From positions 1 through 64,000 of the forward strand of contig JAJCXZ010000035.1 of the NCBI GenBank assembly GCA_029263175.1: DNA of 64,000 bases, in the 5' to 3' direction. This document shows, in pieces, positions 8,209 through 31,283 of this stretch; the stretch's first letter is position 1; each line of letters opens with the position of its first letter. Source of the stretch: Acidimicrobiales bacterium (GTDB taxonomy: Bacteria; Actinomycetota; Acidimicrobiia; Acidimicrobiales; Aldehydirespiratoraceae). The notes below the pieces were generated by a model. It was given only the letters and a program-made list of their open reading frames with translations. It did no database searches and had not been told where the DNA came from. Position numbers and translations under genes: made by a program.

Positions 8209-8472
8209 ATGGACATTCGAGCGATCGTTTTGGAAGAGCTCCTTGTGCTCTTCGAAGAAGATGACCTAGCGGCGCCCGAGTTCGAAGACGACACATTGCT
8301 GCTTGAGACGGATCTCGACAGTCTCGGATTCGCTGTGCTCGTCACACGTCTCGAAGAGCGTTTGGGCTACGACCCCTTCTCGTTGATGGACGAGCCGATC
8401 TACCCGGCGACGTTCAAGGAGTTTGTCGATATCTACGGCCAGTTCGCGTCGGAAGCACGGCCTTCGACATGA
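8209..8472 (+). CDS. Acyl carrier protein
   Basis: 87 residues, strongly acidic, with the phosphopantetheine attachment serine in LETDLDSLGFAVLVTRLEE (about residue 41) and the three-helix length of a discrete ACP. ATG 8209 is used because the ACP fold starts there and a GGGAGA site precedes it. The family carries acyl or aminoacyl groups as thioesters. The stop overlaps the start of the adjacent ligase by four bases (ATGA), and a ketoreductase follows with the same overlap, so this is a dedicated ACP for the trio rather than the housekeeping fatty-acid ACP. Confidence 0.88.
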   Translation: MDIRAIVLEELLVLFEEDDLAAPEFEDDTLLLETDLDSLGFAVLVTRLEERLGYDPFSLMDEPIYPATFKEFVDIYGQFASEARPST

Positions 8473-9698
8473 GCCCGAGCGAACGATCGCTCTCCGCGGC
8501 TGTTCGATCAATCGACTACGAGCTCACCGGCGACGAACTCAGGTCCGATCGGCTCGGCCTCCGCAGCCAGGTGCCTCGAGGCGGGGTTGCGGCGTTGTCG
8601 ACCAACGACGCCGCCGTTGTAGCCGCCGCGCTGACATCGCTCGATGGCTGGGCCTCCGAGGTGCGGCTCATCCCCCCTTGCGCAGAGCTTCCGGCGCAGG
8701 TTGTCGATGTCGCGACAATCGCCCCAAGGCCGGACGGACCAAAGGTCCAGAGCGATCCCTTGCCGGACGCGACTCGATGGGTTCTCTACACCTCAGGAAC
8801 CACAGGGGTGCCAAAGTCCGTCTCGCATACCCTCCAATCCCTGACCCGAACGGTCGTTGCCGGGAAGCGAGGGGCATTCGTGTGGGGCTTGCTCTACGAC
8901 CCAAACCGGATGGCCGGGCTTCAGGTCCTGCTGCAGGCCATCCATAGTGAAGCGACCGTGATCGCCCCGGCTCTAAGCGAACCGTTGAATGCTCGAGTGC
9001 GCGCACTTCTTGAAGCCGGGGTGAACGCGTTGTCCGCCACACCGTCATTGTGGCGCCAGATCCTCCAGCTGCCGGTGACGCACGAGTGGAACCTTCAGCA
9101 GATCACCCTCGGCGGTGAGATCGCCGATCAGCGAGTGCTGGATGCGCTCGCCGGTCGATTCCCCGCCGCTCGGATCGTCCACGTGTTTGCGTCGACTGAG
9201 ACCGGAGCGGCCTTCAGTGTGAAGGACGGCCGCGCCGGCTTCCCTGTCGAGTACCTGGATGACCCGCCCCGCGGCGTCCGACTGGAAATCCGAGAGGGCA
9301 TCCTGCACGTGTACAGCCCCGGGGTCAGCACGGCAGGAAGCGACGGGTTTGCCTCGACCGGAGACATCGTCGAGGTCGTCGACGACCGGGTCATGTTCAA
9401 TGGCAGGTCCAGCGGAGTCGTGAATGTGGGAGGTTCCAACGTCTGGCCGGAGGCCGTAGAGACGATCTTGCGAGAGCATCCTGATGTCGTCGAAGCAGTC
9501 GTTTCGGCGAAACCCAATCCGATGATGGGCAATGTGCTCGTCGCTCAGGTAACGCTCATCGAGGGTACCGACACCACGGGGATCGCCAAGCAACTACGCC
9601 GCTGGGTCCGCGATCGGGCCTCCGGATCCCACGTTCCGGCGTCGGTGGCAGTCGTAGACGAACTCCAGGTTTCAGCGACCGGAAAGGTGCAGCGATGA
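8469..9698 (+). CDS. AMP-forming acyl-ACP/CoA ligase (ANL superfamily), short form
   Basis: 409 residues, shorter than the usual 500-550. The phosphate loop LYTSGTTGVPKSVSH is at about residue 107; later ANL motifs include FASTETGAAF, STGDIVEVVDDRVMFNGRSSG (hinge region) and a C-terminal SATGKVQR with the catalytic Lys. The N-terminal subdomain is trimmed. The family activates a carboxylic acid as the adenylate and loads it on a phosphopantetheine thiol. Four-base overlaps with the ACP before it and the SDR after it imply it charges that ACP. The acid is unknown. Confidence 0.85.
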   Translation: MSPSERSLSAAVRSIDYELTGDELRSDRLGLRSQVPRGGVAALSTNDAAVVAAALTSLDGWASEVRLIPPCAELPAQVVDVATIAPRPDGPKVQSDPLPDATRWVLYTSGTTGVPKSVSHTLQSLTRTVVAGKRGAFVWGLLYDPNRMAGLQVLLQAIHSEATVIAPALSEPLNARVRALLEAGVNALSATPSLWRQILQLPVTHEWNLQQITLGGEIADQRVLDALAGRFPAARIVHVFASTETGAAFSVKDGRAGFPVEYLDDPPRGVRLEIREGILHVYSPGVSTAGSDGFASTGDIVEVVDDRVMFNGRSSGVVNVGGSNVWPEAVETILREHPDVVEAVVSAKPNPMMGNVLVAQVTLIEGTDTTGIAKQLRRWVRDRASGSHVPASVAVVDELQVSATGKVQR

Positions 9699-10417
9699 CC
9701 GCGGGGGAACGCGACCTCGTGGTCGTGACCGGCACGTCGGGGGGTCTCGGCGGCGCGATCGCGGCTCGCTCAATCGCCGACGGTTTCCGCGTTGTGGGCA
9801 TCGCTAGACGGGACGTGTCCGCAGCTGATATCGGCGACGGCTATGAGCACATCCAATACGACCTCGGCGACATCGACGGGCTCGGCGGATTGGTGGGCGA
9901 AATCGCCGAGCAGTTCGGCAAGCCCTATGCGCTCGTCAACAACGCAGCGATCGGCACTGACGGCCTTCTCCCCACGATGCATAACGCCGACATCGAGGAG
10001 GTCGTTCGGGTGAACGTGACCTCTCCTATGGTCCTGACGAAATATGTGGTCCGACACATGCTGGCGGCTCGCCGCGGTCGAATCATCAACATCTCATCGA
10101 TCGTCGCACGAACCGGGTATCGCGGGCTCGCCGCCTATGGCGCAACCAAGGCAGCCGTCGAGGGCTTCACGCGCTCTCTGGCACGCGACGTCGGTCCCCG
10201 AAAGATCACCGTCAACGCGGTGGCTCCTGGATTCCTCGCCACTGAGATGACGTCTGGCCTCGGTGACACGAACCTCAAGCGCATCCAGAACCGATCGGCG
10301 TTGGGGCGGTTTGCAGAGGTCGACGAGGTTGCCGGGTCCGTTGCGTACCTGCTCTCCACGTCCGCGGCAGGCGTGACAGGCACGGTGCTCACTGTGGACG
10401 GTGGCTCAACCGCATGA
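9695..10417 (+). CDS. SDR oxidoreductase, FabG-like 3-oxoacyl-ACP reductase
   Basis: 240 residues, classical SDR. NAD(P)-binding GTSGGLGGAIA at about residue 10, NNAAIG, catalytic Ser in INISSIVA and Tyr/Lys in YGATK, then the C-terminal LLSTSAAGVTGTVLTVDGG typical of FabG. Translationally coupled (ATGA) to the ligase and thus to the ACP. Inference: it reduces a 3-oxoacyl group held on the ACP, giving a 3-hydroxyacyl donor for decorating a sugar; a sugar ketone is an alternative substrate. Confidence 0.85.
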   Translation: MTAGERDLVVVTGTSGGLGGAIAARSIADGFRVVGIARRDVSAADIGDGYEHIQYDLGDIDGLGGLVGEIAEQFGKPYALVNNAAIGTDGLLPTMHNADIEEVVRVNVTSPMVLTKYVVRHMLAARRGRIINISSIVARTGYRGLAAYGATKAAVEGFTRSLARDVGPRKITVNAVAPGFLATEMTSGLGDTNLKRIQNRSALGRFAEVDEVAGSVAYLLSTSAAGVTGTVLTVDGGSTA

Positions 10418-10496: not shown

Positions 10497-11348
10497 GTGA
10501 TGCCTGCCACCCGAGTCACCGATCCTGGACTCGTCGATGCTCACGCAAACAGCCAGTTGGGCCCCTACTTGCGCGGGCTTTGGAAGCGGCGGAGCTACGG
10601 CTGGTACGTCGCCGAGTCGGACCTCCGTCAACGGCAGATCACGACCATCTTCGGGAGTTTGTGGCACCTCCTCAATCCCCTGCTGTCGATCGCCGTGTAC
10701 TTCCTCGTGTTCGGACTCATCCTCAAAACAGACCGTGGGGTTGATGGGAAGGGCGGCTTTCTGCTGTTCCTGACTGTGGGATTGTTCGTGTTCCAATACA
10801 CGCAGCGAGCGGTAACCCAGGGCGCAATATCCATCGTCGCCAACCGCGGACTCATCCAAGCCATCCGGTTCCCCCGGGCGCTGCTTCCGCTGTCGGCGAC
10901 GCTCACAGAGACCTTCGCCGCGTTGCCGAGCTTCATCGTTGTATATGTAGTGGCGATCACCACCGGCACAACCCCCACCTGGAGTTGGCTGGCCCTTCCT
11001 GGGATCGTCGCGTGGCAGATGTTGTTCAATTTCGGCGCAGCAATGATTGCCGCCCGCGTGACGACTCACTTCCGCGATATGCAGCAACTTCTCCCGTTCG
11101 TGTTCCGTCTGCTTATCTACGCCTCCGGGGTGTTCTTCTCCATCGAGAACTATGTCTCTGACGGTTGGATGACGGTCCTGTTCATCCTCAACCCGATGTA
11201 CGCCTTCATCGCGATGGCGAGGTGGGCAACGATGGGAATGGACATGCCCGCTGAAGCCGTCTTTGCCGCCATCGTATGGACCGCGGTCGCGCTCGTCGGA
11301 GGCTTCTTGTGGTTCAAGTCGGCGGAGCATGCCTATGACCGCGTCTGA
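10497..11348 (+). CDS. wzm: Polysaccharide ABC exporter permease (Wzm, ABC-2 type)
   Basis: 283 residues with six hydrophobic spans in the ABC-2 arrangement (about 56-76, 85-107, 130-160, 168-190, 200-222, 250-272). The N-terminal RSYGWYVAESDLRQRQITTIFGSLWHLLNPL is characteristic of the O-antigen/teichoic-acid exporters (Wzm/TagG), with the amphipathic interface helix before the first span. It moves undecaprenyl-linked glycans across the membrane. GTG 10497 or ATG 10500 can be the start. It overlaps the ATPase by 14 bases. No Wzx/Wzy is present in the island, so this is its export route. Confidence 0.92.
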   Translation: MMPATRVTDPGLVDAHANSQLGPYLRGLWKRRSYGWYVAESDLRQRQITTIFGSLWHLLNPLLSIAVYFLVFGLILKTDRGVDGKGGFLLFLTVGLFVFQYTQRAVTQGAISIVANRGLIQAIRFPRALLPLSATLTETFAALPSFIVVYVVAITTGTTPTWSWLALPGIVAWQMLFNFGAAMIAARVTTHFRDMQQLLPFVFRLLIYASGVFFSIENYVSDGWMTVLFILNPMYAFIAMARWATMGMDMPAEAVFAAIVWTAVALVGGFLWFKSAEHAYDRV

Positions 11349-12096
11349 GCAAGCGTCCCCGGCCACTGGGACTGAGCAACTGAGCGTCCTCGTGGAGGAT
11401 GTGCACGTCAACTTCCGTGTATACAAGGACAACGACGCTTCGCTCCGAGAGTTCGTCCGGCGCGGAATGCGACGAGCCGTCGATGTCCACGCACTAAAGG
11501 GTGTGAGCATCGAAATCGGCGTCGGCGAGTCGGTCGGCATCGTGGGCTCCAACGGTTCCGGCAAGTCGACGCTGTTGCGAGCGATTGCGGGGGTCCAGCC
11601 CTTGAGCAACGGCAAGGTTTTCGTGCGCGGCGAGGCACACCTTCTCGGCGTCGGTGCCGCCTTGAAGCCTCTGCTCTCCGGGCGACGCAACATCCTTCTC
11701 GGCGGGTTGGCGATGGGGATGACCCGATCCGAGATTGAAGCGAAGCTCCACGAGGTGGTCGAGTTCGCTGGGCTTGAGGAGTCGATCAACCTCCCGCTGA
11801 ACACCTACTCGGTTGGCATGCGGAGTCGGCTCGCCTTCGCGATTGCGACGCTGCGCGTCGCGGATGTTCTCTTGGTTGACGAAGCCCTCGCCGTCGGCGA
11901 CCAGGCATTCCGGGAGCGAAGTCTCGCCCGGCTGCGCTCGCTACGGGACGAGGCTGGCGCGGTTGTACTCGTCACCCACAACCTCGTCGAGATTCGTCAG
12001 AGCTGTTCACGGGCCATTTGGCTGGAACAGGGCGAGATCCGTGCCGACGGCGACGTCGGCGAGGTGCTCGACGAGTATTCGCCGACCTCTGCATGA
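11335..12096 (+). CDS. wzt: Polysaccharide ABC exporter ATPase (Wzt/TagH type)
   Basis: 253 residues from ATG 11335, inside the end of wzm. Walker A GSNGSGKST, signature YSVGMRSRLAFAIA and Walker B DVLLVDEALAVGDQAF are diagnostic for the polysaccharide-export subfamily, as is the N-terminal FRVYKDNDASLREFV. There is no C-terminal carbohydrate-binding extension, so chain-end recognition as in E. coli O9a Wzt is not expected. Works with Wzm to flip the finished glycan. A 168-base gap follows. Confidence 0.92.
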   Translation: MTASEQASPATGTEQLSVLVEDVHVNFRVYKDNDASLREFVRRGMRRAVDVHALKGVSIEIGVGESVGIVGSNGSGKSTLLRAIAGVQPLSNGKVFVRGEAHLLGVGAALKPLLSGRRNILLGGLAMGMTRSEIEAKLHEVVEFAGLEESINLPLNTYSVGMRSRLAFAIATLRVADVLLVDEALAVGDQAFRERSLARLRSLRDEAGAVVLVTHNLVEIRQSCSRAIWLEQGEIRADGDVGEVLDEYSPTSA

Positions 12097-15127: not shown

Positions 15128-16066
15128 CTACTGCGGGAAGTCGTTCGTGTCGTAGCGCGGCAGGGTGAGGGGATCATCGACACCGATTTGCGCAGTATCG
15201 ACCCTTGTCGTCAGACCAACCGTGCAGCTCCGAGCCCGAAGGATCTCGACAAGAGCATCGTCCCAACCCCCAAACGGATAGCACATCACCCACTGGTCGC
15301 CGACCGGCATGCCGAGGTCGGCCAGGAAGTCCAACGATCCCTCGATCTCATCGATACGGGTCGCCGTGTCGACATGATTGAGCCAGAGGTGCGACTTACC
15401 GTGCGAACCGAAGTACATCCCGCAATCAACCATTAGGCGAGCCTGATCGCGGTTCAGATATTGCTCGGCCGCGAAAGTCGATTCGTCGACGCTCACGAAC
15501 CGCTCGAACAGTTGCCGCGCGACCTGTCCGCGAAGAGCGGAGGGCAATGCGGTCTGCAGCATGCGTTTGACGTAGATCGTTTCGGCGTCATCGAACCGGT
15601 TCGAATGCGCCCACTCGGAGCGGTAGTCCGAAACCGACCTCACGTCGTACTCGCCTACTGCTCCAACAACGGCTTCGTCGATCGCTGCTGCCAGCGGAGC
15701 GGAGGACGGAGCGCTGGCGAGGATGAAGTGCACCCGATTCACATCGAGCAGGGTCCCGTCGCGAATAGGGGCGACCGGCGGAAAGAACGAGCCTTGAAGA
15801 CCCCGATCGTGCAGGATCGGAAAGACAGCGTCGAAGTGCTCGGCATAGCCGTCGTCGAAGGTGAGCAGCGCAGCGTCAGGAGGAAGTTCGGCCTCGCCGC
15901 GAACGGCGGCGATCACATCCTCCATGCGCACGATCCGGAAGCTCGACATGAGGTGATCGAGTTGGCGCCGAAACCCGGCCACGTCGAGTCCCTTCAGACC
16001 TGGATACCGGGTCCGAGCGAAGTCTCGAACGTAGTGGTACATCACGATCGTGAGCGGTGAGGCCAT
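15128..16066 (-). CDS. Polysaccharide deacetylase (NodB/CE4-like)
   Basis: 312 residues. The CE4 signature appears as ALLTFDDGYAEHFDAVFPIL (about residue 67; metal-binding Asp), with FGSHGKSHLWL supplying the H-x-x-x-H metal ligands and YPFGGWDD further on. N-terminal VMYHYVRD is the usual opening of this branch. No signal peptide is evident, so it probably works on a lipid- or nucleotide-linked intermediate in the cytoplasm, removing N-acetyl groups. Start supported by a TAGTCT box six bases upstream. Transcribed against the preceding genes. Confidence 0.88.
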   Translation of the reverse strand: MASPLTIVMYHYVRDFARTRYPGLKGLDVAGFRRQLDHLMSSFRIVRMEDVIAAVRGEAELPPDAALLTFDDGYAEHFDAVFPILHDRGLQGSFFPPVAPIRDGTLLDVNRVHFILASAPSSAPLAAAIDEAVVGAVGEYDVRSVSDYRSEWAHSNRFDDAETIYVKRMLQTALPSALRGQVARQLFERFVSVDESTFAAEQYLNRDQARLMVDCGMYFGSHGKSHLWLNHVDTATRIDEIEGSLDFLADLGMPVGDQWVMCYPFGGWDDALVEILRARSCTVGLTTRVDTAQIGVDDPLTLPRYDTNDFPQ

Positions 16067-17567: not shown

Positions 17568-18737
17568 ATGAAGGTGCCGCTGGCGATACCCAACCTCAGT
17601 GGCCGGGAGGCCGAATACCTCCAAGAGTGCATTCGATCGACTTTCGTGTCCACCGCTGGCCCGTTCGTCACTCGCTTCGAGCAGCAGATCGCCGAATTGA
17701 GCGGCACAGAGAGCGCGGCCGTCACATGCTCGGGCACGGTTGCGCTGCAGATGGCGCTTGAGGGTCTCGGCATCGGTGACGGCGACCTCGTCATGGCCCC
17801 GTCGCTCACATTCATCGCTTCCCCGAACTCCATACGTCACAGTCGCGCCGACGTGTGGCTGGTCGACTGCACCACTCACGACTGGACTTTGGATCTGGAG
17901 ATCGCCGAGGCGGCCATCGAGCGAGAGACCGAGCCACACCCGTACGGCCGGCTCCATCGCGAGACCGGCAAGGTATTGAAGGCCATCATGCCGGTGATGA
18001 TCATGGGAGCGGGCCTCGACTTCGACGCCTACGTCGAGTTCGCTCAACGACACGGCCTGCGGGTCGTGGTCGATGCGGCCGCCGCCATTGGCGCGTCCAG
18101 CGTCGACAACACCCCGCTGGGAGCCACCGGGGTGGATGCCATCTGCTACTCGTTCAACGGCAATAAGACGGTCACCAGCGGCGGCGGTGGCGCCGTCGCT
18201 TCCGCTCACGCTGAGGTCGTGGCACGAATCAACCACCTGGTTTCGACGGCGCGCGTCGGCACGGCCTACGACCACGATGAGGTCGGCTACAACTTCCGGA
18301 TGACAAACGTCGAAGCGGCGATCGGCGTCGCCCAGCTGGAACGTCTGCCGCTGTTTCTCGAACGGAAGCGACAGATTCACGAGCGCTACGCGGCCGTGGC
18401 CGGGCCCCACCCGGACCTCGAGCCTTTCCCCGCCTCTGCCGCTCGAGGCAGCGTTCACTGGTTCTCCGGGTTCCACTACACCGGCGCCGACGTCAGTCGC
18501 TGCAAGCGGTTCTGCACATTCATGGTCGACCGGGGAATCGATGTGCGGCCGTTCTGGAAGCCGGTCCATCTCCAAGGGCCGTATGTCAACGCGCAACGCA
18601 CCGCCGTCGAGGTGACCGAACAGCTTTGGGAGCGGATCATCCCGTTGCCCTGCTCGACCGGGATCACCGACGACGAACTCGACTATGTGGCTGACTCCGC
18701 CGCAGAGTACTGGGCGGGCGGCTCCAACGATGCATGA
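17568..18737 (+). CDS. legC: DegT/DnrJ/EryC1 aminotransferase, LegC-like
   Basis: 389 residues, PLP-dependent sugar aminotransferase. The PLP-lysine is in YSFNGNKTVTSGGGGAV (about residue 203), with the cofactor-phosphate/threonine region CSGTVALQMAL and aspartate in VVVDAAAAIGA. The family adds an amino group to a 4-keto sugar; in legionaminic acid synthesis LegC converts the 4-keto-6-deoxy nucleotide sugar from LegB into the 4-amino form. First gene of a tightly packed run with every other step of the pathway, which is the main reason for the LegC assignment. It overlaps legG by eight bases. Confidence 0.88.
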   Translation: MKVPLAIPNLSGREAEYLQECIRSTFVSTAGPFVTRFEQQIAELSGTESAAVTCSGTVALQMALEGLGIGDGDLVMAPSLTFIASPNSIRHSRADVWLVDCTTHDWTLDLEIAEAAIERETEPHPYGRLHRETGKVLKAIMPVMIMGAGLDFDAYVEFAQRHGLRVVVDAAAAIGASSVDNTPLGATGVDAICYSFNGNKTVTSGGGGAVASAHAEVVARINHLVSTARVGTAYDHDEVGYNFRMTNVEAAIGVAQLERLPLFLERKRQIHERYAAVAGPHPDLEPFPASAARGSVHWFSGFHYTGADVSRCKRFCTFMVDRGIDVRPFWKPVHLQGPYVNAQRTAVEVTEQLWERIIPLPCSTGITDDELDYVADSAAEYWAGGSNDA

Positions 18738-19956
18738 GCTGCGGCGGATCGCGGTCGCAACGTTCGGGCGATCCGACTTCTCGATCCTCCGCCCACTCTG
18801 CCGCCAGCTGCTCGCCGACCCGACGTTCGAGGTCGGCATGTGGGTAGGCGGTGCACACTTCGAGGAGGTCAGCGGCCGTACCGTCAATGAGATTGAACGG
18901 TCGGGTATCCCGATCTGGGCCCGAGTCGAGGGAGTCCCGTCCGATCGGTCGACCCTCGGAACCGTCCAGACGATGGCGGATCAGATGACCGGATTCGCCG
19001 CTGCCGCCTTGCGGGTCGACCACCCCCTCGTCGACGTCACCGGGCCACACGCCGACCTCGTGCTCATCCTCGGCGACCGCTTCGAGGCTGTCGCCGCGGG
19101 GCTTGCGATGGTGCCACTGGGCATCCCGGTCGGTCATATTAGCGGTGGAAGCATTACCGAAGGCGCTATTGACGACGTATTTCGACACTGTCTGACGAAG
19201 ATCGCCGCAGTCCACTTCTGCGACCTCCCTCGATTCGCCCAGCGAATCCACTACATGGGTGAGCCAACCGATCGAATTGTGACGACCGGCGCGCTCGGCC
19301 TGGACGGCTTCGCGGCGGCAAGGACGCATGACCTTTCGGAGTTCGCGGCACGGTTCGACTTGGGCGATCTTCGCCCGGGCTACGCCTTGGGGACTCTCCA
19401 CCCAGAGACACGCAATCCCGAAGTGACCCGATCCATGGCCGAGTCTATGGTCGAGGCGCTATCAGTGTCCGGACGCGACGTCGTCATCACCTATCCGAAT
19501 GCTGACCCTGGCTCAGAGGAGATCATCGACGTGATCGAGGGTGCCGCAATACGTCACCGACATGTTCACTGTGTGCGCGCGTTCGGTGCCGACTGGTACC
19601 CCACCGCAATGGCACACGCAGGCTTGATGGTCGGCAACTCGTCGGGAGGAATCATCGAGGCGGCGAGTTTCAACCTCCCCGTCATCGATATCGGCGCCCG
19701 CCAGAAGGGCCGGGAACACGGCCCCAATGTCATACACTGCAGCCGTGATCAGGCGGGCATCCTCAGGGCGATTCGCGAGGTAGGCCACGTGGATTTCCGT
19801 GCGAAGGCCATGAGCGGCAACATCTACGGCGACGGGCGGGGCGCCGAGCGCGTGATGGCTGCCCTTCACATCGCGGACTTCGAGGCGCTCGCCGCGCCGA
19901 AGCGATTCGCAGCGCCGGATCCCGAGTTCGAAGGCGGACTGATGGAGCTCCGATGA
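18730..19956 (+). CDS. legG: Hydrolysing NDP-sugar 2-epimerase, LegG/NeuC-like
   Basis: 408 residues from ATG 18730. GT-B epimerase fold: AVATFGRSDFSILRPL at the N-terminus, catalytic-domain segments ILGDRFEAVAAGLAM and GHISGGSITEGAIDD, then NSSGGIIEAASFNLPVIDIGARQKGRE, the nucleotide-binding hallmark of NeuC. NeuC/LegG enzymes invert C2 and hydrolyse off the nucleotide, here giving 2,4-diacetamido-2,4,6-trideoxymannose for LegI. Overlaps both neighbours; ATGA with the PtmE gene. NeuC-specific GDRFE and GHISGG separate it from the non-hydrolysing WecB family. Confidence 0.9.
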   Translation: MHELRRIAVATFGRSDFSILRPLCRQLLADPTFEVGMWVGGAHFEEVSGRTVNEIERSGIPIWARVEGVPSDRSTLGTVQTMADQMTGFAAAALRVDHPLVDVTGPHADLVLILGDRFEAVAAGLAMVPLGIPVGHISGGSITEGAIDDVFRHCLTKIAAVHFCDLPRFAQRIHYMGEPTDRIVTTGALGLDGFAAARTHDLSEFAARFDLGDLRPGYALGTLHPETRNPEVTRSMAESMVEALSVSGRDVVITYPNADPGSEEIIDVIEGAAIRHRHVHCVRAFGADWYPTAMAHAGLMVGNSSGGIIEAASFNLPVIDIGARQKGREHGPNVIHCSRDQAGILRAIREVGHVDFRAKAMSGNIYGDGRGAERVMAALHIADFEALAAPKRFAAPDPEFEGGLMELR

Positions 19957-21023
19957 AGCTGATCACCCTACGCGGAGACGATTGCAGTGCGCTGTCGGTC
20001 GAGCCGGGGGAGGACCTGCGCAGCGCAATGCAGCGTATGAACGAGAGCGGCCGCACCCTGCTCCTCGTCACCAAGGACAGCCGCCTGATGGGTGTGATCG
20101 CTGACGGGGACATCCGTCGATACCTCGCTGGCGGTGGAATGGCCGACGAGCCGGTCCAGGCCGCTCTCAATGAGGCACCAACAACGCTCGACCACGAAAC
20201 CCCGATACCCGAAGTCCGCGCATTCATGGTTCGCCGCGGGTTCGAATACATGCCGCTGACCGACGGTGACAACGCCGTGGCGCTTTGCATCCTCGACCGC
20301 GCTCCGCGGGCAACGGAGCTCTCGGCGATCATGATGGCCGGCGGGCTCGGCACACGCCTCGCTCCGCTGACGGACGACTGCCCGAAACCGTTGTTGCCTC
20401 TCGGCGGCAAGCCCATTCTGAGCCACATTCTCGATCACCTGAAGGGGCAGGGGGTCCACCGCTACGTGTTCTCGGTCAGCTATCTCTCGCACATGGTCGT
20501 CGACCACTACGAGGACGGCTCGGGGTTCGACTGTTTGATCGACTACGTCCACGAGACGCAACGGCTCGGCACCGGCGGTCCCCTGAGTCTCGTCGATCCC
20601 GAATCGATCTCCGATCCGTTTCTGTGCATGAACGCCGACGTGCTCAACGACATCGACATCGGAGCCCTCCGCGACACACACGAATCCAACGGCTGGGATG
20701 CCACGATGGTCGTCCTCGAACACACCAACGCAATCCCGTACGGCGTGGTGGACACCGCCCAGGACGGCAGTTTCGTCGAGATCCGCGAGAAGCCGGTCCA
20801 GTCGTTCCGCATCAACGCCGGCGTGTACATGCTGTCGAAATCAACTCTGCCATTGATACCAAGTGGAACGCAGTACGACATGCCGCGCCTGTTTTCGGAC
20901 CTTCGGGCCTGCGGTATGCGCTGTGGCACCTACGTGCACAGCGGTCGTTGGATCGACATCGGCACGACTCGAGAGTTCGAGCGTGCGAGGGCGATCTTCG
21001 ACGACGAGGCCGATGCTCGATGA
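19953..21023 (+). CDS. ptmE: CBS-domain sugar-1-phosphate nucleotidyltransferase, PtmE-like
   Basis: 356 residues. A CBS pair occupies about residues 1-115 (TKDSRLMGVIADGDIRRYL, YMPLTDGDNAVALCILDR); the rest is a nucleotidyltransferase with MMAGGLGTRLAPLTDDCPKPLLPLGGKPIL and the metal-binding CMNADVL. This CBS-plus-transferase order is that of Campylobacter PtmE, the glucosamine-1-phosphate guanylyltransferase that puts legionaminic acid synthesis on GDP-sugars instead of the UDP-sugars of the pseudaminic route. Its presence is the strongest pointer to the GDP pathway. ATGA overlap with the next gene. Confidence 0.88.
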   Translation: MKLITLRGDDCSALSVEPGEDLRSAMQRMNESGRTLLLVTKDSRLMGVIADGDIRRYLAGGGMADEPVQAALNEAPTTLDHETPIPEVRAFMVRRGFEYMPLTDGDNAVALCILDRAPRATELSAIMMAGGLGTRLAPLTDDCPKPLLPLGGKPILSHILDHLKGQGVHRYVFSVSYLSHMVVDHYEDGSGFDCLIDYVHETQRLGTGGPLSLVDPESISDPFLCMNADVLNDIDIGALRDTHESNGWDATMVVLEHTNAIPYGVVDTAQDGSFVEIREKPVQSFRINAGVYMLSKSTLPLIPSGTQYDMPRLFSDLRACGMRCGTYVHSGRWIDIGTTREFERARAIFDDEADAR

Positions 21024-22270
21024 ACGGACTCGAAGCCAGCCTCTCGCCGCTCGATCGTCGAGTTGCGGGACGGGAACGCAGCTTCCTCTTTGACGATCTC
21101 GCCGCTGCCTCTGATGAGCTCAAGGAGCTCATCGAGGGGAGCCGGATCCTCATGATTGGCGGGGCGGGGTCGATCGGCTCCCACACTCTGCGCACCATCT
21201 TGCACTTTGGACCGAAGACCTTGCATGTCATCGACCACAACGAGAACGGCCTCGCCGAGTTGGTGAGAGGACTCCGGTCATCGTCCGATACCCCGCCACT
21301 CGGTGAGCTCCTCACACTGCCGTTCGGTCTCGGCGGTGAACCATTCCGGTTGTGGCTCTCCTCTAGCGGCGTTGCCTACGACCACGTCCTGAACTTCGCC
21401 GCGCTCAAGCACGTCCGTTCCGAGAAAGACCCCTTCTCGATTCTCGCGATGCTCGAGACGAACGTGTTACATCTCGACCGCCTCTCACAACTCCTCTCCC
21501 AACGCACAAGTATCAAGCGGGTGTTCTCCGTCTCGACCGACAAGGCAGCCAATCCGAGCAGCATGATGGGCGCGACGAAACGACTGATGGAGCACGCTCT
21601 GTTCCAGCCGACACATCCGTGGGCCAACGGTGTGAGTGTTTCTTCGACCCGCTTCGCGAACGTTGCATTCTCGAACGGTTCACTCCTCCAGGCGTGGCAA
21701 CATCGCCTCGCCGACAGCCAGCCCCTGGCATGCCCGGAGGGGACACGACGCTTCTTCGTGTCGCTCAGCGAGTCAGGGCATCTCTGCACACTCGCCGGAT
21801 TCCTAGGCACCGACCGGAGCGTGATGGTGCCATCACTTGATCCCGACGAGAACCTCGTCCTGCTGGCCGATGTCGCAACCGAGTTCTTGGCTCATCATGG
21901 CTATGAGGCCCATCTGACGTACGACGAACAGGAGGCGCTTGAGCGCGTCGGAGAGTTGAAGGCCGCTGGCCGCTGGCCGCTCTTGCTGACCCCGCTCGAC
22001 ACAAGCGGCGAAAAACCATACGAGGAGTTCGTGGGTGCCCACGAGACGGTCCAGCAGTCTCGTTTCGCTGCATTGGAGGAGATCCCCTACCTGGCTCCAG
22101 CATCGCCGGGGAGTTTCCCTGCGCTCGTCGACACGCTACGCGAACTGCTTGCCAGCGCTGATTCCACCACCGTCACGGTCGAGGGTCTCAGATCACTCAT
22201 CGCCCAGGTCGAGCCGTCCTTCGCCCAAAGCCATCGGGCCAGCACTCAGTCCCTCGATCAACGGATGTAA
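21020..22270 (+). CDS. legB: CapD-like NDP-sugar 4,6-dehydratase, LegB role
   Basis: 416 residues from ATG 21020. Extended SDR of the polysaccharide-biosynthesis CapD/FlaA1 group: NAD site RILMIGGAGSIGSHTLR (about residue 40), then FSVSTDKAANPSSMMGATKRLMEHAL, where Met replaces the usual active-site Tyr before Lys, as in CapD. It lacks the membrane domain of long CapD proteins. By position it should supply the 4-keto-6-deoxy sugar used by LegC (LegB step). The C-terminal 140 residues are longer than in typical soluble dehydratases and look group-specific. Confidence 0.82.
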   Translation: MNGLEASLSPLDRRVAGRERSFLFDDLAAASDELKELIEGSRILMIGGAGSIGSHTLRTILHFGPKTLHVIDHNENGLAELVRGLRSSSDTPPLGELLTLPFGLGGEPFRLWLSSSGVAYDHVLNFAALKHVRSEKDPFSILAMLETNVLHLDRLSQLLSQRTSIKRVFSVSTDKAANPSSMMGATKRLMEHALFQPTHPWANGVSVSSTRFANVAFSNGSLLQAWQHRLADSQPLACPEGTRRFFVSLSESGHLCTLAGFLGTDRSVMVPSLDPDENLVLLADVATEFLAHHGYEAHLTYDEQEALERVGELKAAGRWPLLLTPLDTSGEKPYEEFVGAHETVQQSRFAALEEIPYLAPASPGSFPALVDTLRELLASADSTTVTVEGLRSLIAQVEPSFAQSHRASTQSLDQRM

Positions 22271-22272
22271 TC

Positions 22273-23295
22273 ATGCAGTTCGACGATGGTTGTTTCGTCA
22301 TCGCAGAGATCGGTGTCAATCACAACGGTTCGCTCGATCTCGCACGCGAACTGATTGACGCCTCCGCGGAGGCCGGCGCCGACGCCGTCAAGTTCCAGAC
22401 ATTCTTCGCTGCCGATCTGGTGACCGAATCGGCTCGCAAGGCCGACTATCAGAGCCGGAACACCGGCGACGAGGGCAGTCAGCACGCTATGCTGGCGTCA
22501 CTTGAGCTCGGTGAGTCGGACTTCGGCGACCTGATGGCCCATTGCGCCGAGCGGAGTATCCACTTCCTTTCGACCCCATTCGGCTTTCGTGCCGCCGATC
22601 TTCTCGAGCGCATCGGTGTCGACGCGTTCAAGGTGAGTTCCGGCGACCTCACCTATCATCAGCTGCTCGCCCATCTGGCGCAGAAGGGCAAGCCGATCAT
22701 CTTGTCCACCGGCATGGGCACGATGGCGGAGATCGAAGTGGCGTTGGAAGTCATCGACCGCGCCGGGCCCGCACCAGTGTCGCTGCTGCACTGCGTCTCG
22801 GACTACCCAGCCGCACCCGATACCTGCAATCTCACGGCCATGGCCACGATGGAAGCGGCATTCGGCCGGCCCGTTGGCTGGTCCGACCACACAGTCGGGT
22901 CCGCCGTTGGTTTCGCCGCCGCTGCATTGGGTGCGCGGATCATCGAGAAACACATCACCCTCGACGTCACCATGGACGGGCCGGATCATGCCGCCTCGAT
23001 GGAGCCAGCCGCCTTCGGCGATTTCGTTGCCGGTATCCGAGCGATCAGCGCGGCTCTGGGCAACGGTATCAAGCGTCCCGGAGCGGCCGAACTACGCACG
23101 GCGGAGGTCGCTCGCCGTTCCCTCATCGCAGCCCGCGACCTGCATGCCGGTGAAGTTATCGGCGCTGACGACCTCGCAATCCTGCGGCCGGGTACCGGAC
23201 TTCCACCGGCGATGTTCACCACCGTGGTGGGGTGTCGGTTGGGTCGTTCAGTTTCGACAGGCGAGCCGTTGACGATCGAGGATCTACATGGCTGA
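22273..23295 (+). CDS. legI: Legionaminic/sialic acid synthase, NeuB family
   Basis: 340 residues. NeuB TIM barrel: FVIAEIGVNHNGSLDLA, ADAVKFQTF, metal-binding His residues in SLLHCVSDYP and GWSDHTVG, and EKHITLD; the C-terminal SAF/antifreeze-like domain begins near residue 280 (RRSLIAARDLHAGEVIGADDL). It condenses phosphoenolpyruvate with a six-carbon amino sugar to give a nine-carbon nonulosonic acid. Neighbouring LegB/LegC/PtmE indicate the 6-deoxy diamino substrate of legionaminic acid rather than ManNAc. Eight-base overlap with the acyltransferase gene. Confidence 0.93.
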   Translation: MQFDDGCFVIAEIGVNHNGSLDLARELIDASAEAGADAVKFQTFFAADLVTESARKADYQSRNTGDEGSQHAMLASLELGESDFGDLMAHCAERSIHFLSTPFGFRAADLLERIGVDAFKVSSGDLTYHQLLAHLAQKGKPIILSTGMGTMAEIEVALEVIDRAGPAPVSLLHCVSDYPAAPDTCNLTAMATMEAAFGRPVGWSDHTVGSAVGFAAAALGARIIEKHITLDVTMDGPDHAASMEPAAFGDFVAGIRAISAALGNGIKRPGAAELRTAEVARRSLIAARDLHAGEVIGADDLAILRPGTGLPPAMFTTVVGCRLGRSVSTGEPLTIEDLHG

Positions 23296-23923
23296 CACCG
23301 ACGCCCCGGTGGTCGTGGTCGGGGCCGGCGGCCACGCTCGCGTGGTGGCGGAGGCGGTCGGGCAGGATCGAGTGGTCGGTCACCTGTCACCGACTAAGGG
23401 TGAGTTCAACGCCTTGCTCGGGCCTCGACTCGGCGACGACAAAGCGGTCGCTCAGGTCGAAGCCGACGGGCATTCGCTCGCTATCGGTGTCGGATTCGTC
23501 GATCGGCCGAGCGCTGAACGACGCTCTCGGCTAATCAAGGGGTTGGGTGCGGTCAGGCTGGCCACGGTCGTACACCAGCGGGCGATCGTGGCACCGAGCG
23601 CGCAGATCGGTGCCGGAGCCTTCGTTGCAGCCGGAGCAGTGATCGGCACAAACTCTCGTATCGGGCGCGCCTCGATTGTGAACACCGGCTCAGTCGTCGA
23701 CCATGACTGCCAGATCGGAGCCAACGTGCACATCGGCCCTGGCGCTGTTCTGTCTGGCGATGTAGAAGTGGGCGACGACAGCTTGATCGGCGTCGGAGCG
23801 ACCGTGCGCCAAGGGGTCCACATCGGTCGGAACGTCATCATCGGCGCCGGTGCCGCCGTTATCGCGGACATTCTTGACGGGGATACTGCGGTCGGCGTTC
23901 CGGCGCGCAGTGTAGACAAGTGA
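23288..23923 (+). CDS. NeuD/PglD-like hexapeptide acyltransferase (LegH candidate)
   Basis: 211 residues. An N-terminal Rossmann-like half (VVVVGAGGHARVVAEAV) leads into a left-handed beta-helix of hexapeptide repeats from about residue 95 (APSAQIGAGAFVAAGAVIG...). The likely catalytic His is in GSVVDHDCQIG, as in PglD. PglD acetylates the 4-amino group of a UDP-sugar; LegH does the equivalent on the GDP-sugar. It may instead use an acyl-ACP from the 8.2 kb trio. Alternative role: O-acetylation of the finished acid (NeuD). GTG/stop overlap with the next gene. Confidence 0.83.
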   Translation: MADTDAPVVVVGAGGHARVVAEAVGQDRVVGHLSPTKGEFNALLGPRLGDDKAVAQVEADGHSLAIGVGFVDRPSAERRSRLIKGLGAVRLATVVHQRAIVAPSAQIGAGAFVAAGAVIGTNSRIGRASIVNTGSVVDHDCQIGANVHIGPGAVLSGDVEVGDDSLIGVGATVRQGVHIGRNVIIGAGAAVIADILDGDTAVGVPARSVDK

Positions 23924-24898: not shown

Positions 24899-25582
24899 AT
24901 GGCGACGATCTGCACCATTTGCGCGCGCGGCGGCTCGGCGGGGGTCGCGCGCAAGAACGTCCGACCCTTGTTGGGCAAACCACTCATCGGGTGGACGATC
25001 GAGCAGGCGCTTGCGAGCCCCGCCATCGACGCAGTCTATGTCTCGACGGAAGACGACGAAATCGCCGAGGTCGCCATGGAATTCGGAGCGTCCGTTCCGT
25101 ATCGACGACCTGCCGACCTCGCCACCGCCTCGGCGGCGAAGCTTCCCGTCATCGCTCACCTCATCGAGCGAGTCGAAGAGGACGGCGTCGAGGTGACACG
25201 CATCGTCGACCTCGATCCCACGTCGCCGCTGCGGACGGGGGACGACATCGAGGCGGCCATCTCCTTGTTGCAGGACGATGTCGACGTTGTGATAACCGGC
25301 TACGCGTCGGACAAGAACCCGTATTTCAACATGGTCGAACAGAAGCCCGACGGGACGTTCGGCCTGGTGGTTGCATCCAGCGCGGTTTCGCGGCAGTCCG
25401 CCCCGACTGTTTTCTCTATGAACGCCTCCATCTACGTCTGGCATCGCCACACATTCTCGAGCGGATTATGGAACGGCCGAACAAGTCTCTATGAGATGCC
25501 ACGGGAGCGTTCGATCGACATCGACAGCGAACTGGATTTCAAGATCGTCGAGCTACTAATGGACGAACGAGGAGAGTCATGA
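24899..25582 (+). CDS. legF: CMP-legionaminic acid synthetase, PtmB/NeuA family
   Basis: 227 residues. The cytidylyltransferase signature ICARGGSAGVARKNVRPLLGKPLIGWTI is complete, with VYVSTEDDEIA, LDPTSPLRTGDDI and the late IDIDSELDF metal-binding motif. The family activates nonulosonic acids with CTP to CMP-sugars for transferases. NeuA homologues act on sialic acid; the linked genes favour legionaminic acid (PtmB/LegF). It follows the PtmF-like gene by one base and overlaps the SDR gene by four bases. The CMP-sugar product is the presumed donor for the two large transferases at 28.7-32.4 kb. Confidence 0.92.
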   Translation: MATICTICARGGSAGVARKNVRPLLGKPLIGWTIEQALASPAIDAVYVSTEDDEIAEVAMEFGASVPYRRPADLATASAAKLPVIAHLIERVEEDGVEVTRIVDLDPTSPLRTGDDIEAAISLLQDDVDVVITGYASDKNPYFNMVEQKPDGTFGLVVASSAVSRQSAPTVFSMNASIYVWHRHTFSSGLWNGRTSLYEMPRERSIDIDSELDFKIVELLMDERGES

Positions 25583-26362: not shown

Positions 26363-27436
26363 ATGATTCGAGTACGCATCGCAGAAGCCGATGACCAAAA
26401 GCGGCTCATCGAGTTCATCCACGATCATTGGTCCGAGACGCACATCTTCGCGCAGCGACCTGAGGTGTTTGCCTGGCAGCATCTCCAAGACGACGGCCGG
26501 TTGAACATGGTCCTCGCCGAGGAGGTCGACGTGCCCGAAGAACGGGTGCTCGGAGTCCTCGGCTTCATTCCAATGGGTCGGTTCGCGCCGAACCTCGGGG
26601 ATCGCGACTTGCTGCTAGCGATCTGGAAAGTCGACGAGAGCGCAGCTCCACCCGGGCTCGGACTTCGGCTGCTGAAGTACCTCCGCTCCGAACTGCAGCC
26701 GCGGATGATCGCCGCGATCGGCACCTCGGAAATGGTTCGCCGGATCTACGAGGTGCTCAGGTACCGCGTTGGTGCACTCCACCAATCGGCGATCTTCAAC
26801 CCCGCTCGCCGCGATGACCTCCGCGTCGCCGCCAATGTCCCCGCTTCGGCCTTCGAGCCGGCTATTGAAGTGCCCGCCGAGGTACTCGAGCTGGTTCCCT
26901 TCGGCGCCGACGCCAGCGCCGACCTTCGTGTAACCATCGACACCCTCGGCGAGGGCGGTTTGCCGACAAAAAGCTGGGCCTATGTTGAAGCTCGCTATTT
27001 ACGGCACCCGTGGTACCGATACGAAACTCGGCTCGTGCGTTCTGGCGGCCTCCCTGTCGCAATCGTTGTCTGGCGGGTTGTGCGGGGGGTTGGCGCCGAC
27101 GTGCTTCGAATCGTGGACGTGATCGGCGACACCGGGTGGCTGCGTCGAGCGCCGTTCGCCCTGCAAGAAGAGATTGTTCGAGTAGATGCCGAATACATCG
27201 ATCTGATGCAGTGGGGCATCGATTCTGCCCTTCTCGCCGCCGCTGGCTTTGTGTGCGTCGACAACCATCCCGACATGATCTTGCCGAACTACTTCTCACC
27301 TTTTGAAGCGCGCAATGTGCCGATCGAACTGGCTGTCAAGGTGTTCGACGACGACGAGGCGCGAGCGACCCTCTTTCGGGCGGACTCCGATCAGGATCGA
27401 CCCAACCTCGTCTCCGAGGTCGAGCACACCCGCTGA
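26363..27436 (+). CDS. GNAT-like N-acyltransferase of the glycan island
   Basis: 357 residues from ATG 26363. The first 160 residues have GNAT features: VRIAEADDQKRLIEFIHDHW, a central VLGVLGFIPMGRF strand and the acyl-donor loop APPGLGLRLLKYL. The second half (from about 190) looks like a related but degraded fold with no motif I can name. Sits between ptmA and a glycosyltransferase; stop and next start overlap by one base. It could be the 4-N-acetyltransferase (LegH in Campylobacter is GNAT-type), leaving the NeuD-like protein for another acylation. Confidence 0.65.
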   Translation: MIRVRIAEADDQKRLIEFIHDHWSETHIFAQRPEVFAWQHLQDDGRLNMVLAEEVDVPEERVLGVLGFIPMGRFAPNLGDRDLLLAIWKVDESAAPPGLGLRLLKYLRSELQPRMIAAIGTSEMVRRIYEVLRYRVGALHQSAIFNPARRDDLRVAANVPASAFEPAIEVPAEVLELVPFGADASADLRVTIDTLGEGGLPTKSWAYVEARYLRHPWYRYETRLVRSGGLPVAIVVWRVVRGVGADVLRIVDVIGDTGWLRRAPFALQEEIVRVDAEYIDLMQWGIDSALLAAAGFVCVDNHPDMILPNYFSPFEARNVPIELAVKVFDDDEARATLFRADSDQDRPNLVSEVEHTR

Positions 27437-28664: not shown

Positions 28665-31283
28665 TTAGACGCTGAAGACCGGGTGGGGACCATCCAAGAA
28701 CATCGATATCGGCCGCTCATCCTCTGGTCGAATGACAGCTGGTCCCGCAGCGAGAACGTCCTGGACGAGTTCTCGTACGCGCGATCCGGGACCATCCACG
28801 AACTGCCGTTCCCGTTCGATGAACGCTCTGGATCTTGCGGTGAACGGCTCGGGGTCTGCTCTGAAGTCCGCGAGTAGTGCGCCAAGCTCGGCGGCCGAAT
28901 GCACCATCTGAGCACCAACAATCGCCGGAATGTCAACCGGGTAGGCGACGTTACCGTCGGTCACGCACACGACCGGCCGCTGCCGGATGGCCGCGTCGAT
29001 TGCCGCAGCGCTGTAGGCGGTGAGCACTAGGTCACCGAGCGCAATCGCCGTTGCCGCATCGCAGTCGAGCATCACGACCAAATCGGACATACCCAGCGAC
29101 GCCGCCTGGTCGAGGTACTGCTGAGCCCTATTCACCGATTCCTCAGGGTGAGTCTTGAGTAGGATTCGACAACGTTCGGATCCAGCCCCTTGGAGCACGT
29201 TCGCCCACACCTTCGACACATGTGACCAATCCGAGGGCTGGCAGAAAAACACCACATTCATCTCACCGGGTGTGAATGACACACCGTGTTGTGCCGAATA
29301 GGAGATGCGTGCACCCCGTTGGGCTTGGACCGGGTCGTACCCCTCTGGGGCGACCTGACGGGGCGAGCCGACCACAGATATGCGATCCGGCATGATCCCG
29401 AGGCCGGCCGCCGCGTTGATCGCGAAGTGCTCCGAAAGTACGCCGTATCGATCTGCCGCAATCTTGATGTAGCGGCTGTAGTTGGCGTCCTGGGCGTGTG
29501 GTTCGAGGACGACGGTCGGGACGCCCAGCGAACGCGCCGCGGGTATCACCGAAGTGACGGAGACGCTCCGGTTGGGCGACATCACGATGATGTCAGGAAG
29601 CTCGTTCCGACGTTGCAGATCGCGCAACCAGGAGCGCACTGCTCGCATACGTGCGATCGCCGGGGCGATCGTCGTTTGGGCCAAGCGACCAGCACCGATC
29701 TCGAGCGCTGCCAAGGCTGCTTGCTCAGCTGGCCCGGACCGCAGCTCGAACGGCCGGTCGCGAATCGAGTCAGCAACTACGCCGGCCATCGCACCAACTC
29801 TCTCCGGAACCGGAGTCAGGAAATCGATCGGGATGTGCGAGGCGCTGAGACCATCGAGGTGTAAGGCGAGATCTGCGGCATTCTGGCCCATGTGCAAAAT
29901 GCTGACGTTGGCGGATTCGTCCACCGCTTGTGCATACGCCGCTGTCGAGGAGTTGTAAGCAGCGTTGTTCGTCGTGACGAACAGAGCCCGAGGACGATCG
30001 GTGTTCGGAAATGACGGGAGCGAACCGGTGAGCCTTCGAGCTTCCGCCCGGAAACTGCGCGTAGCAATTGCTAGCGGCACTCGCCGAACGGGGCGCCGTG
30101 TAGTGGTAGGTGGTCCGAACAGACCGTCGAGTTGCCCCCAAAAGGTTGTGCGCTGGCTAGCGGTCCTCGAGACCGAAGCGACCTCGAGGCGCGGGTCCTC
30201 CAGTAGACCGTCGACGTGACGCAACAAAGCTAGGAACTCATCTTCAGGTCGCTGATTGCTCAAGGCGACTACGACCTCGTCGTATGTTTGATCGCCGACG
30301 AGTTGCTCGAGCGCTCGAATCTTGAGCGCTTGAAAGAACAGGAAGTCGGCAACCTCCACCTCGAGGAACGGCTGATCGGCAGACTCGAGGAGATCAGAGA
30401 CTTCTCCCAAACGTGCGCAGACCTGTGATGCAAGTGTTGCCGTGGCCTCGTGAAGGTCGATGTACGGTTGCGAGAATCTTGTTATCCGACTTCGGACATG
30501 TTCGACACGTAGGCTCCCCACATTCGGCCAGTCTCGGTACTTCTCGAGATCTGCCTTGCCGAACGTGTCGGACGTGGCAATCAATGAGGTCTGTGCCGAG
30601 CCGGGAAGTAGCAGCGCGACAGCGTCACAATCGGCATCGCTCTCGGTGATGACAAGTCGGTTGCCAGGGCCCTCGGACCCCAGAGCTCGAGTCCCGGCGG
30701 GCCGGTAGGAGGCGCTATCCAGCACCTGGAAGAACCGGCTGTCAGGGACTTCGTAGCGGTTAGCGATGCGATCGATGAGCGCTGTGGCATCGTCGGGTTC
30801 GAGCAAGATTCGGGCGGCGCCGGCGAATGCTCCACCAAGCACGCGATCGCTCTCAACCCGGTTGACGAACTCGATCTGAGTTGCATCGGTCCGCAACCAC
30901 TCTGCGACAAGATCACTGCTCATCGGGTGACGAGCCAGGCCGATTATCACCGTTGGGTCAGGTGCCTGCGCCAGACTCTCGGCCACGAAGTGTGCGACTG
31001 CCTCGTCCGCATTCTCCGTGTCAAGCCGTTCGAGTCGCTGCTGCACATCGAACCAGACCGGATCCCGCCCAATACTTCGCCAGAAGTACCGGTTCGCTGA
31101 AAGCTCGCCGCAGGCCATTTCGACCAAGCGCACCTGCCCACTCATCGCTCGACGCTTGACTCGGTGGAGCAACAGCCCTGATCGAGTCTTGATGAGGTCC
31201 TTCGCTGCCGAGAACCGCGACTCAGGGGCGACGCCGCGCGCGGAACGAACCAGCGTGAGCAGCGGTCCAAGAGGATTCCTCAT
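28665..31283 (-). CDS. Large GT-B glycosyltransferase, capsule/polyol-phosphate polymerase type
   Basis: 872 residues. The N-terminal half (to about 430) is helical with no domain I recognise. The C-terminal half looks like a GT-B enzyme of the capsule-synthesis / CDP-glycerol transferase group: SLGVPTVVLEPHAQDANYSRY, DRYGVLSEHFAINAAAGLGI then ISVVGSPR, MNVVFFCQPSDW, the HP motif ILLKTHPEES, and LGDLVLTAYSAAAIDAAIRQRPVV near the end. The K-x-HP motif is shared with polysialyltransferases. Start overlaps the stop of the upstream gene by four bases. It may transfer or polymerise legionaminic acid; donor unproven. Confidence 0.65.
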   Translation of the reverse strand: MRNPLGPLLTLVRSARGVAPESRFSAAKDLIKTRSGLLLHRVKRRAMSGQVRLVEMACGELSANRYFWRSIGRDPVWFDVQQRLERLDTENADEAVAHFVAESLAQAPDPTVIIGLARHPMSSDLVAEWLRTDATQIEFVNRVESDRVLGGAFAGAARILLEPDDATALIDRIANRYEVPDSRFFQVLDSASYRPAGTRALGSEGPGNRLVITESDADCDAVALLLPGSAQTSLIATSDTFGKADLEKYRDWPNVGSLRVEHVRSRITRFSQPYIDLHEATATLASQVCARLGEVSDLLESADQPFLEVEVADFLFFQALKIRALEQLVGDQTYDEVVVALSNQRPEDEFLALLRHVDGLLEDPRLEVASVSRTASQRTTFWGQLDGLFGPPTTTRRPVRRVPLAIATRSFRAEARRLTGSLPSFPNTDRPRALFVTTNNAAYNSSTAAYAQAVDESANVSILHMGQNAADLALHLDGLSASHIPIDFLTPVPERVGAMAGVVADSIRDRPFELRSGPAEQAALAALEIGAGRLAQTTIAPAIARMRAVRSWLRDLQRRNELPDIIVMSPNRSVSVTSVIPAARSLGVPTVVLEPHAQDANYSRYIKIAADRYGVLSEHFAINAAAGLGIMPDRISVVGSPRQVAPEGYDPVQAQRGARISYSAQHGVSFTPGEMNVVFFCQPSDWSHVSKVWANVLQGAGSERCRILLKTHPEESVNRAQQYLDQAASLGMSDLVVMLDCDAATAIALGDLVLTAYSAAAIDAAIRQRPVVCVTDGNVAYPVDIPAIVGAQMVHSAAELGALLADFRADPEPFTARSRAFIERERQFVDGPGSRVRELVQDVLAAGPAVIRPEDERPISMFLDGPHPVFSV

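Follow-up and report, generated by a model that had tools for sequence, protein, structure and literature searches.

An operon of three genes, for an acyl carrier protein (ACP), an AMP-forming acyl ligase and a FabG-like reductase, lies immediately upstream of a glycan exporter in an Acidimicrobiales bacterium, and the trio probably readies a small acid on a private carrier for the decoration of an unusual sugar. It was found in a stretch of 64,000 nucleotides (contig JAJCXZ010000035.1 of GCA_029263175.1, an assembly of 4.4 Mb in 111 contigs), which is referred to as the window. Homologous trios recur, although rarely, in Actinomycetota and Pseudomonadota and, outside one subclade, are linked to nonulosonic acid (NulO) genes. 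Because the same trio is found again in two phyla, its composition is not a matter of chance. The reading given slightly better than even chances is that the trio is a private acyl-supply cassette providing 3-hydroxyacyl-ACP for N-acylation of an amino sugar, in the window likeliest the 4-amino intermediate of a Leg-type pathway acylated by a NeuD-like protein.

The operon and its glycan locus

The three reading frames (Table 1) are joined by two ATGA overlaps, and coordinates and codons agree with the three-gene operon originally predicted. The ACP gene starts at ATG 8209 with a GGGAG-like Shine-Dalgarno sequence and stops at 8470-8472, the ligase gene runs from ATG 8469 to the stop codon at 9696-9698, and the reductase gene from ATG 9695 to that at 10415-10417. 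The gap between the end of the trio and the Wzm-type gene of the ABC exporter is 79 bp, which bears out the predicted position directly before the glycan exporter. No second copy of the trio was found in the bacterium's own genome, where the next-best ligase match has 34% identity and covers the C-terminal domain only.

Table 1. Predicted genes of the trio and of the surrounding glycan locus (window positions)
Feature	Position	Strand	Basis
Dedicated acyl carrier protein (ACP), 87 aa	8209..8472	+	Weak PF00550; attachment Ser38 in LDSLGF
AMP-forming acyl ligase, presumed acyl-ACP synthetase, 409 aa, short N-terminus	8469..9698	+	PF00501 + PF13193
FabG-like 3-oxoacyl-ACP reductase, 240 aa	9695..10417	+	PF13561; best NCBIfam match below cut-off
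ABC exporter permease (Wzm-like, ABC2_membrane)	Start 10497 (GTG) or 10500 (ATG), to 11348	+	PF01061
ABC exporter ATPase (Wzt-like)	About 11332..12096	+	PF00005
Polysaccharide deacetylase	15128-16066	-	
LegC-family aminotransferase	17568..18737	+	TIGR04181 best match, below cut-off
NeuC/LegG-type hydrolysing epimerase	18730..19956	+	TIGR03568 above cut-off
CBS-domain sugar-1-phosphate nucleotidylyltransferase (PtmE-like)	19953..21023	+	PF00571 + PF00483
LegB-like dehydratase (Polysacc_synt_2)	21023..22270	+	PF02719
Neu/Leg-type nonulosonic acid synthase (NeuB/LegI)	22273..23295	+	TIGR03569 above cut-off; PseI model below its cut-off
NeuD/PglD-family hexapeptide N-acyltransferase, candidate acyl-ACP user	23288..23923	+	TIGR03570 above cut-off
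CMP-NulO synthetase (NeuA/PseF-like)	24899..25582	+	PF02348
Orphan protein, originally called a GNAT, possible acyltransferase	About 26363..27436	+	No Pfam match

The locus further contains genes for two Gfo/Idh/MocA oxidoreductases, an SGNH hydrolase, an SDR and a GT4 glycosyltransferase, and as far as sequence can tell this gene set fits the expectation for an ABC-exported NulO glycan. Neither ketosynthase III nor luxE/luxC was found among the Pfam-scanned genes of the window locus, and no gene for synthesis of a 3-oxo acid was recognised in it. Farther along, a protein matching alpha-2,8-polysialyltransferase (PF07388; 31280-32536, minus strand) suggests a poly-nonulosonic acid or a similar polymer; it is adjoined by an 872-residue protein lacking a Pfam match (28665-31283, minus strand). 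An AT3-SGNH fusion acyltransferase (PF01757 + PF19040; 32475-34862, plus strand) is a candidate O-acyltransferase of the same glycan.

The closest PDB entry to the NeuD-family protein is perosamine N-acetyltransferase (4ea7), and PglB/PglD-type enzymes are also close; these relatives are users of acetyl-CoA. The protein at 26363 had been labelled a GNAT; it matched no Pfam family and nothing meaningful in the PDB, and it has no homologue in the 295 other genomes of the class, that is, no relative elsewhere among 296 genomes. It was dropped as a partner of the trio on these grounds. It is also unrelated to the unclassified transferase adjoining the trio in four relatives (L130, L131, L133, L134), and its single-sequence model (pLDDT 35.6) was unusable.

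The three proteins

The ACP scores just under the cut-off of the PP-binding family of Pfam (19.8 against 20.8 bits) and retains the DSL motif with the attachment serine. It is 42-47% identical to the ACPs of the trios L113, L114, L130, L169, L170 and L174, with which it shares the signature LLE(T/S)xLDSLGFA...DPF...YPxTFxEFV; two of the trio ACPs are annotated as ACP. Its nearest relatives are sugar-linked ACPs.

In the ligase, the match to PF00501 covers profile positions 151-333 only, so that the N-terminal part is trimmed or diverged. This short N-terminus is shared with relatives; about 85-125 residues precede the P-loop in most trio ligases, and the few longer reading frames probably have mis-called starts. 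The catalytic letters are present, namely the P-loop TSGTTGVPK, T-E, TGD and the C-terminal Lys406. A structure model (four rows; mean pLDDT 57.5) confirms the fold class only, and its top match in Foldseek is the amide bond synthetase McbA. This match might be taken to mean that the ligase is an amide synthetase acylating an amine straight from acyl-AMP, the ACP and the reductase acting elsewhere. However, the model is poor, its scores against MenE and acetyl-CoA synthetases are about as high, and the ACP and the reductase are linked to the ligase throughout the family, and such an activity is very improbable.

The reductase matches PF13561/PF00106, and its best NCBIfam model is 3-oxoacyl-ACP reductase. 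The catalytic set is complete (Asn107, Ser135, Tyr148, Lys152). Arg126 and Arg169 are taken here, on an alignment made by eye, to correspond to R129/R172, the arginines with which E. coli FabG docks the ACP; arginine stands at these positions in only 9/30 and 13/30 family members, respectively.

Recurrence of the trio and its association with nonulosonic acid genes

Ligase scans of 395 genomes of the class, 396 of the phylum, 289 of the class of genome G753 and 398 of its phylum revealed trio-type ligases in 4, 4, 8 and 20 genomes, respectively. In the class scan, three of the nine matches besides the window are true trio ligases according to the tree, and the rest are other ligases. A plasmid search added trios of Azospirillum, Haematobacter and Qingshengfaniella, and with the L174 ligase as a query the same 14 records were obtained again; a search of E. 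coli genomes gave no match to the cassette. L012-L016 and most of L026-L102 were rejected as trio ligases; their identity is low, their matches are mostly C-terminal or generic, and they look like ordinary acyl ligases. The order ACP-ligase-reductase is kept almost throughout the flanks of the relatives.

In a ligase tree built from 32 trio ligases with four outgroups, the trio ligases stand apart (98/95) from those of the MenE-like and other kinds. A 16-row group (100/98) unites the window ligase with L130, the pse-linked L169, L170 and L174, the sugar-linked L113 and L114, and GNATx_TPP, a monophyletic subclade (100/99) of nine tree rows. The window ligase lies outside this subclade; the window reductase comes out as its sister (91/84). 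The reductase tree otherwise repeats the main ligase groups, and the largely congruent trees indicate that the trio travels as a unit.

Positions of NeuB-family genes (PF03102) were searched in 35 trio genomes, two of which (G061, G510) were left out because their contigs are too short to judge. Outside GNATx_TPP, 11 of 18 genomes have such a gene no more than 15 kb from the ligase, against 0.16 expected under random placement (P ~1e-19, a value that overstates independence because the genomes are related), and the positive genomes fall on several separate branches. Within GNATx_TPP the count is 0/15 (Fisher P 0.0002), where the classes were assigned after the neighbourhoods had been seen and the 15 genomes were placed by the tree (nine) or by near-identical neighbourhoods and best matches (six). 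Thus, the predicted co-occurrence with NeuB clusters elsewhere holds outside GNATx_TPP and fails within it, apparently in a non-glycan setting. The window itself has a NulO synthase within this distance, 12.7 kb from the ligase and beyond two minus-strand genes, though it is of the Neu/Leg type, whereas every one of the eight linked synthases that were typed in other genomes is of the PseI type.

The members of GNATx_TPP (L131, L133, L134, L157-L168) are from Pseudomonadota, and their trios have varying neighbours, among them a second AMP ligase, TPP enzymes, an aaRS-like ligase and an unclassified transferase of about 280-345 aa with a conserved SSWYV motif. Such neighbours, together with the missing NeuB genes and the sister position of the window reductase, would suit a cassette supplying an acyl donor for a small metabolite, which in the window would adjoin the exporter by chance. 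Against this stand the position of the window ligase, the closeness of the ACP to sugar-linked ACPs and the absence from the window of the transferase typical of the subclade, and a non-glycan use is accordingly rated as a distinctly poor prospect.

Outside GNATx_TPP, the trio belongs for the most part to glycan loci, chiefly those for NulO, and often has a hexapeptide or GNAT acyltransferase with it, in line with the original view of a self-contained unit for acyl loading and reduction. It lies inside a pse operon in L170, L173 and L174, and between pseI and flagellin in Azospirillum. Hexapeptide acyltransferases are adjacent to or near the trio in L017, L018, L019, L112, L113, L114 and L169; in L018 the sugar ketoisomerase FdtA is also adjacent, and one in L019 has an LpxD-like N-terminus. 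GNAT-like proteins occur near the trio in L023, L025, L116 and others. The pse operon of L170 also encodes a fusion of a PseH-like GNAT with a MaoC dehydratase domain (L170:6685-7599); the MaoC domain usually acts on 3-hydroxyacyl thioesters. Polysaccharide deacetylase genes are close to the trio at L112:1178-2116, L133:5451-6248 and, by similarity, L130:7928-8890, and, like the one in the window, they possibly serve deacetylation before re-acylation.

These deacetylases, the AT3-SGNH acyltransferase of the window and the relatives in sugar loci lacking a NulO synthase (L113, L114, L018 with FdtA) are what might be expected if the cassette acylated some other part of the same glycan, such as another amino sugar, a deacetylated residue or a hydroxyl group. 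This is the least unlikely of the alternatives, but no other association of the trio family is statistically as strong as that with NulO, and a NulO pathway forms the core of the window locus.

Proposed function and comparison with known systems

In the preferred explanation, supply of 3-hydroxyacyl-ACP for N-acylation, the ligase would adenylate a short carboxylic acid, in the simplest case a 3-oxo acid such as acetoacetate, and load it onto the phosphopantetheine of the private ACP. Reduction by the FabG-like enzyme would then turn 3-oxoacyl-ACP into 3-hydroxyacyl-ACP, and an acyltransferase would pass the acyl group on to an amine of a nucleotide-linked sugar. In the window, the most probable acceptor is the 4-amino intermediate of the Leg-type pathway, with the NeuD-like protein as the transferase. 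The finished glycan would be exported by the adjacent Wzm/Wzt pair. Reduction may also follow transfer to the sugar, an order for which the discussion of a P. syringae study leaves room in mentioning a dTDP-N-acetoacetylviosamine intermediate (PMC3927599). Substrate, step order, acceptor sugar and acyltransferase are all inferred as parts of this explanation. It draws support from the gene overlaps, the short distance to the exporter, the conserved order, the largely congruent trees and the NeuB link, and also from the trios in pse operons and flagellin islands, the hexapeptide acyltransferases nearby, the GNAT-MaoC fusion of L170 and the vioR precedent described below. It is weakened by the distance of the synthase, the PseI type of its counterparts in relatives, the acetyltransferase-like character of NeuD, the lack of a recognised gene for a 3-oxo acid, the NulO-free subclade and the sister relationship of the window reductase to that subclade.

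The precedent originally named, the a-type flagellin glycosylation island of P. aeruginosa with its acyl module orfB-orfE (PMC4020848), fits in part. Like the viosamine island of P. syringae (vioS, vioR, acp, vioB), it has a private ACP and a 3-oxoacyl-ACP reductase for the N-acylation of an amino sugar. In P. syringae flagellin, the reductase VioR is needed for 3-hydroxybutyryl-viosamine, and the glycan lacks the modified viosamine once vioR is deleted (PMC3927599). However, in these islands a ketosynthase III (VioS, OrfC) replaces the ligase, which is not among the genes listed, and the acceptor is dTDP-viosamine rather than a nonulosonic acid (PMC3927599, PMC4020848).

The Aeromonas and enterobacterial islands are nearer. 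In Aeromonas, orf1-orf3 of the Group II flagellin island, described for 98 strains, encode an ACP, a 3-oxoacyl-ACP reductase and an AMP-dependent synthetase, the same three predicted functions as in the window, and likewise among NulO genes (PMC7874193). That island is concerned with pseudaminic acid and flagellin, has the order ACP-reductase-ligase and carries additional luxE and luxC, whereas the window combines the order ACP-ligase-reductase with a Neu/Leg-type synthase and an ABC-exported glycan; the likeness is one of predicted functions. Similarly, enterobacterial flagellin glycosylation islands of about 71 strains contain Acp, CaiC and FabG, that is, an ACP, an acyl ligase and FabG, along with LuxE and LuxC, which were not seen among the Pfam-scanned genes of the window locus; here, too, the likeness is one of predicted functions (PMC4875605).

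Homology of the trio itself extends to the flagellin-linked pse islands of Azospirillum brasilense Sp7 (L116) and A. ramasamyi (L115), where ACP, ligase (40-42% identical) and reductase stand beside pseI. These islands are of the pseudaminic type and carry extra genes, namely a ketosynthase III gene right behind that of the reductase, one for a further ACP and one for an alpha/beta hydrolase. Since a ketosynthase III is added, the acid loaded by the ligase there may not be a 3-oxo acid. By extension, the ligase in the window might load a starter such as malonate, and a ketosynthase III, dedicated in Azospirillum and the housekeeping FabH here, would make acetoacetyl-ACP for the reductase. Such a route is improbable, if a shade less so than the non-glycan use; no ketosynthase was found among the Pfam-scanned genes of the window locus, nor was one seen in the pse-operon cassettes of L170 and L174.

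Within the literature searched, no biochemical test of an ACP-ligase-reductase trio was found, and no route to a non-acetyl acyl donor in NulO loci had been demonstrated biochemically. A broader claim is also conceivable, at somewhat less than even chances: that a Leg/Neu-type, ABC-exported glycan of an actinobacterium undergoes ACP-dependent N-acylation with a donor made from free acid and no dedicated ketosynthase, and that the cassette is a general, horizontally moving changer of NulO acyl groups across phyla. Sets of ACP, FabG and AMP ligase have already been described in the Aeromonas and enterobacterial islands, and the new element here is that such a set occurs together with a Neu/Leg-type synthase and an ABC exporter. 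N-acyl groups define the identity of bacterial nonulosonic acids, and the cassette, which pse operons and Azospirillum flagellin islands share with the window locus, is a testable candidate for a donor route, consisting of three small proteins that could be rebuilt in vitro.
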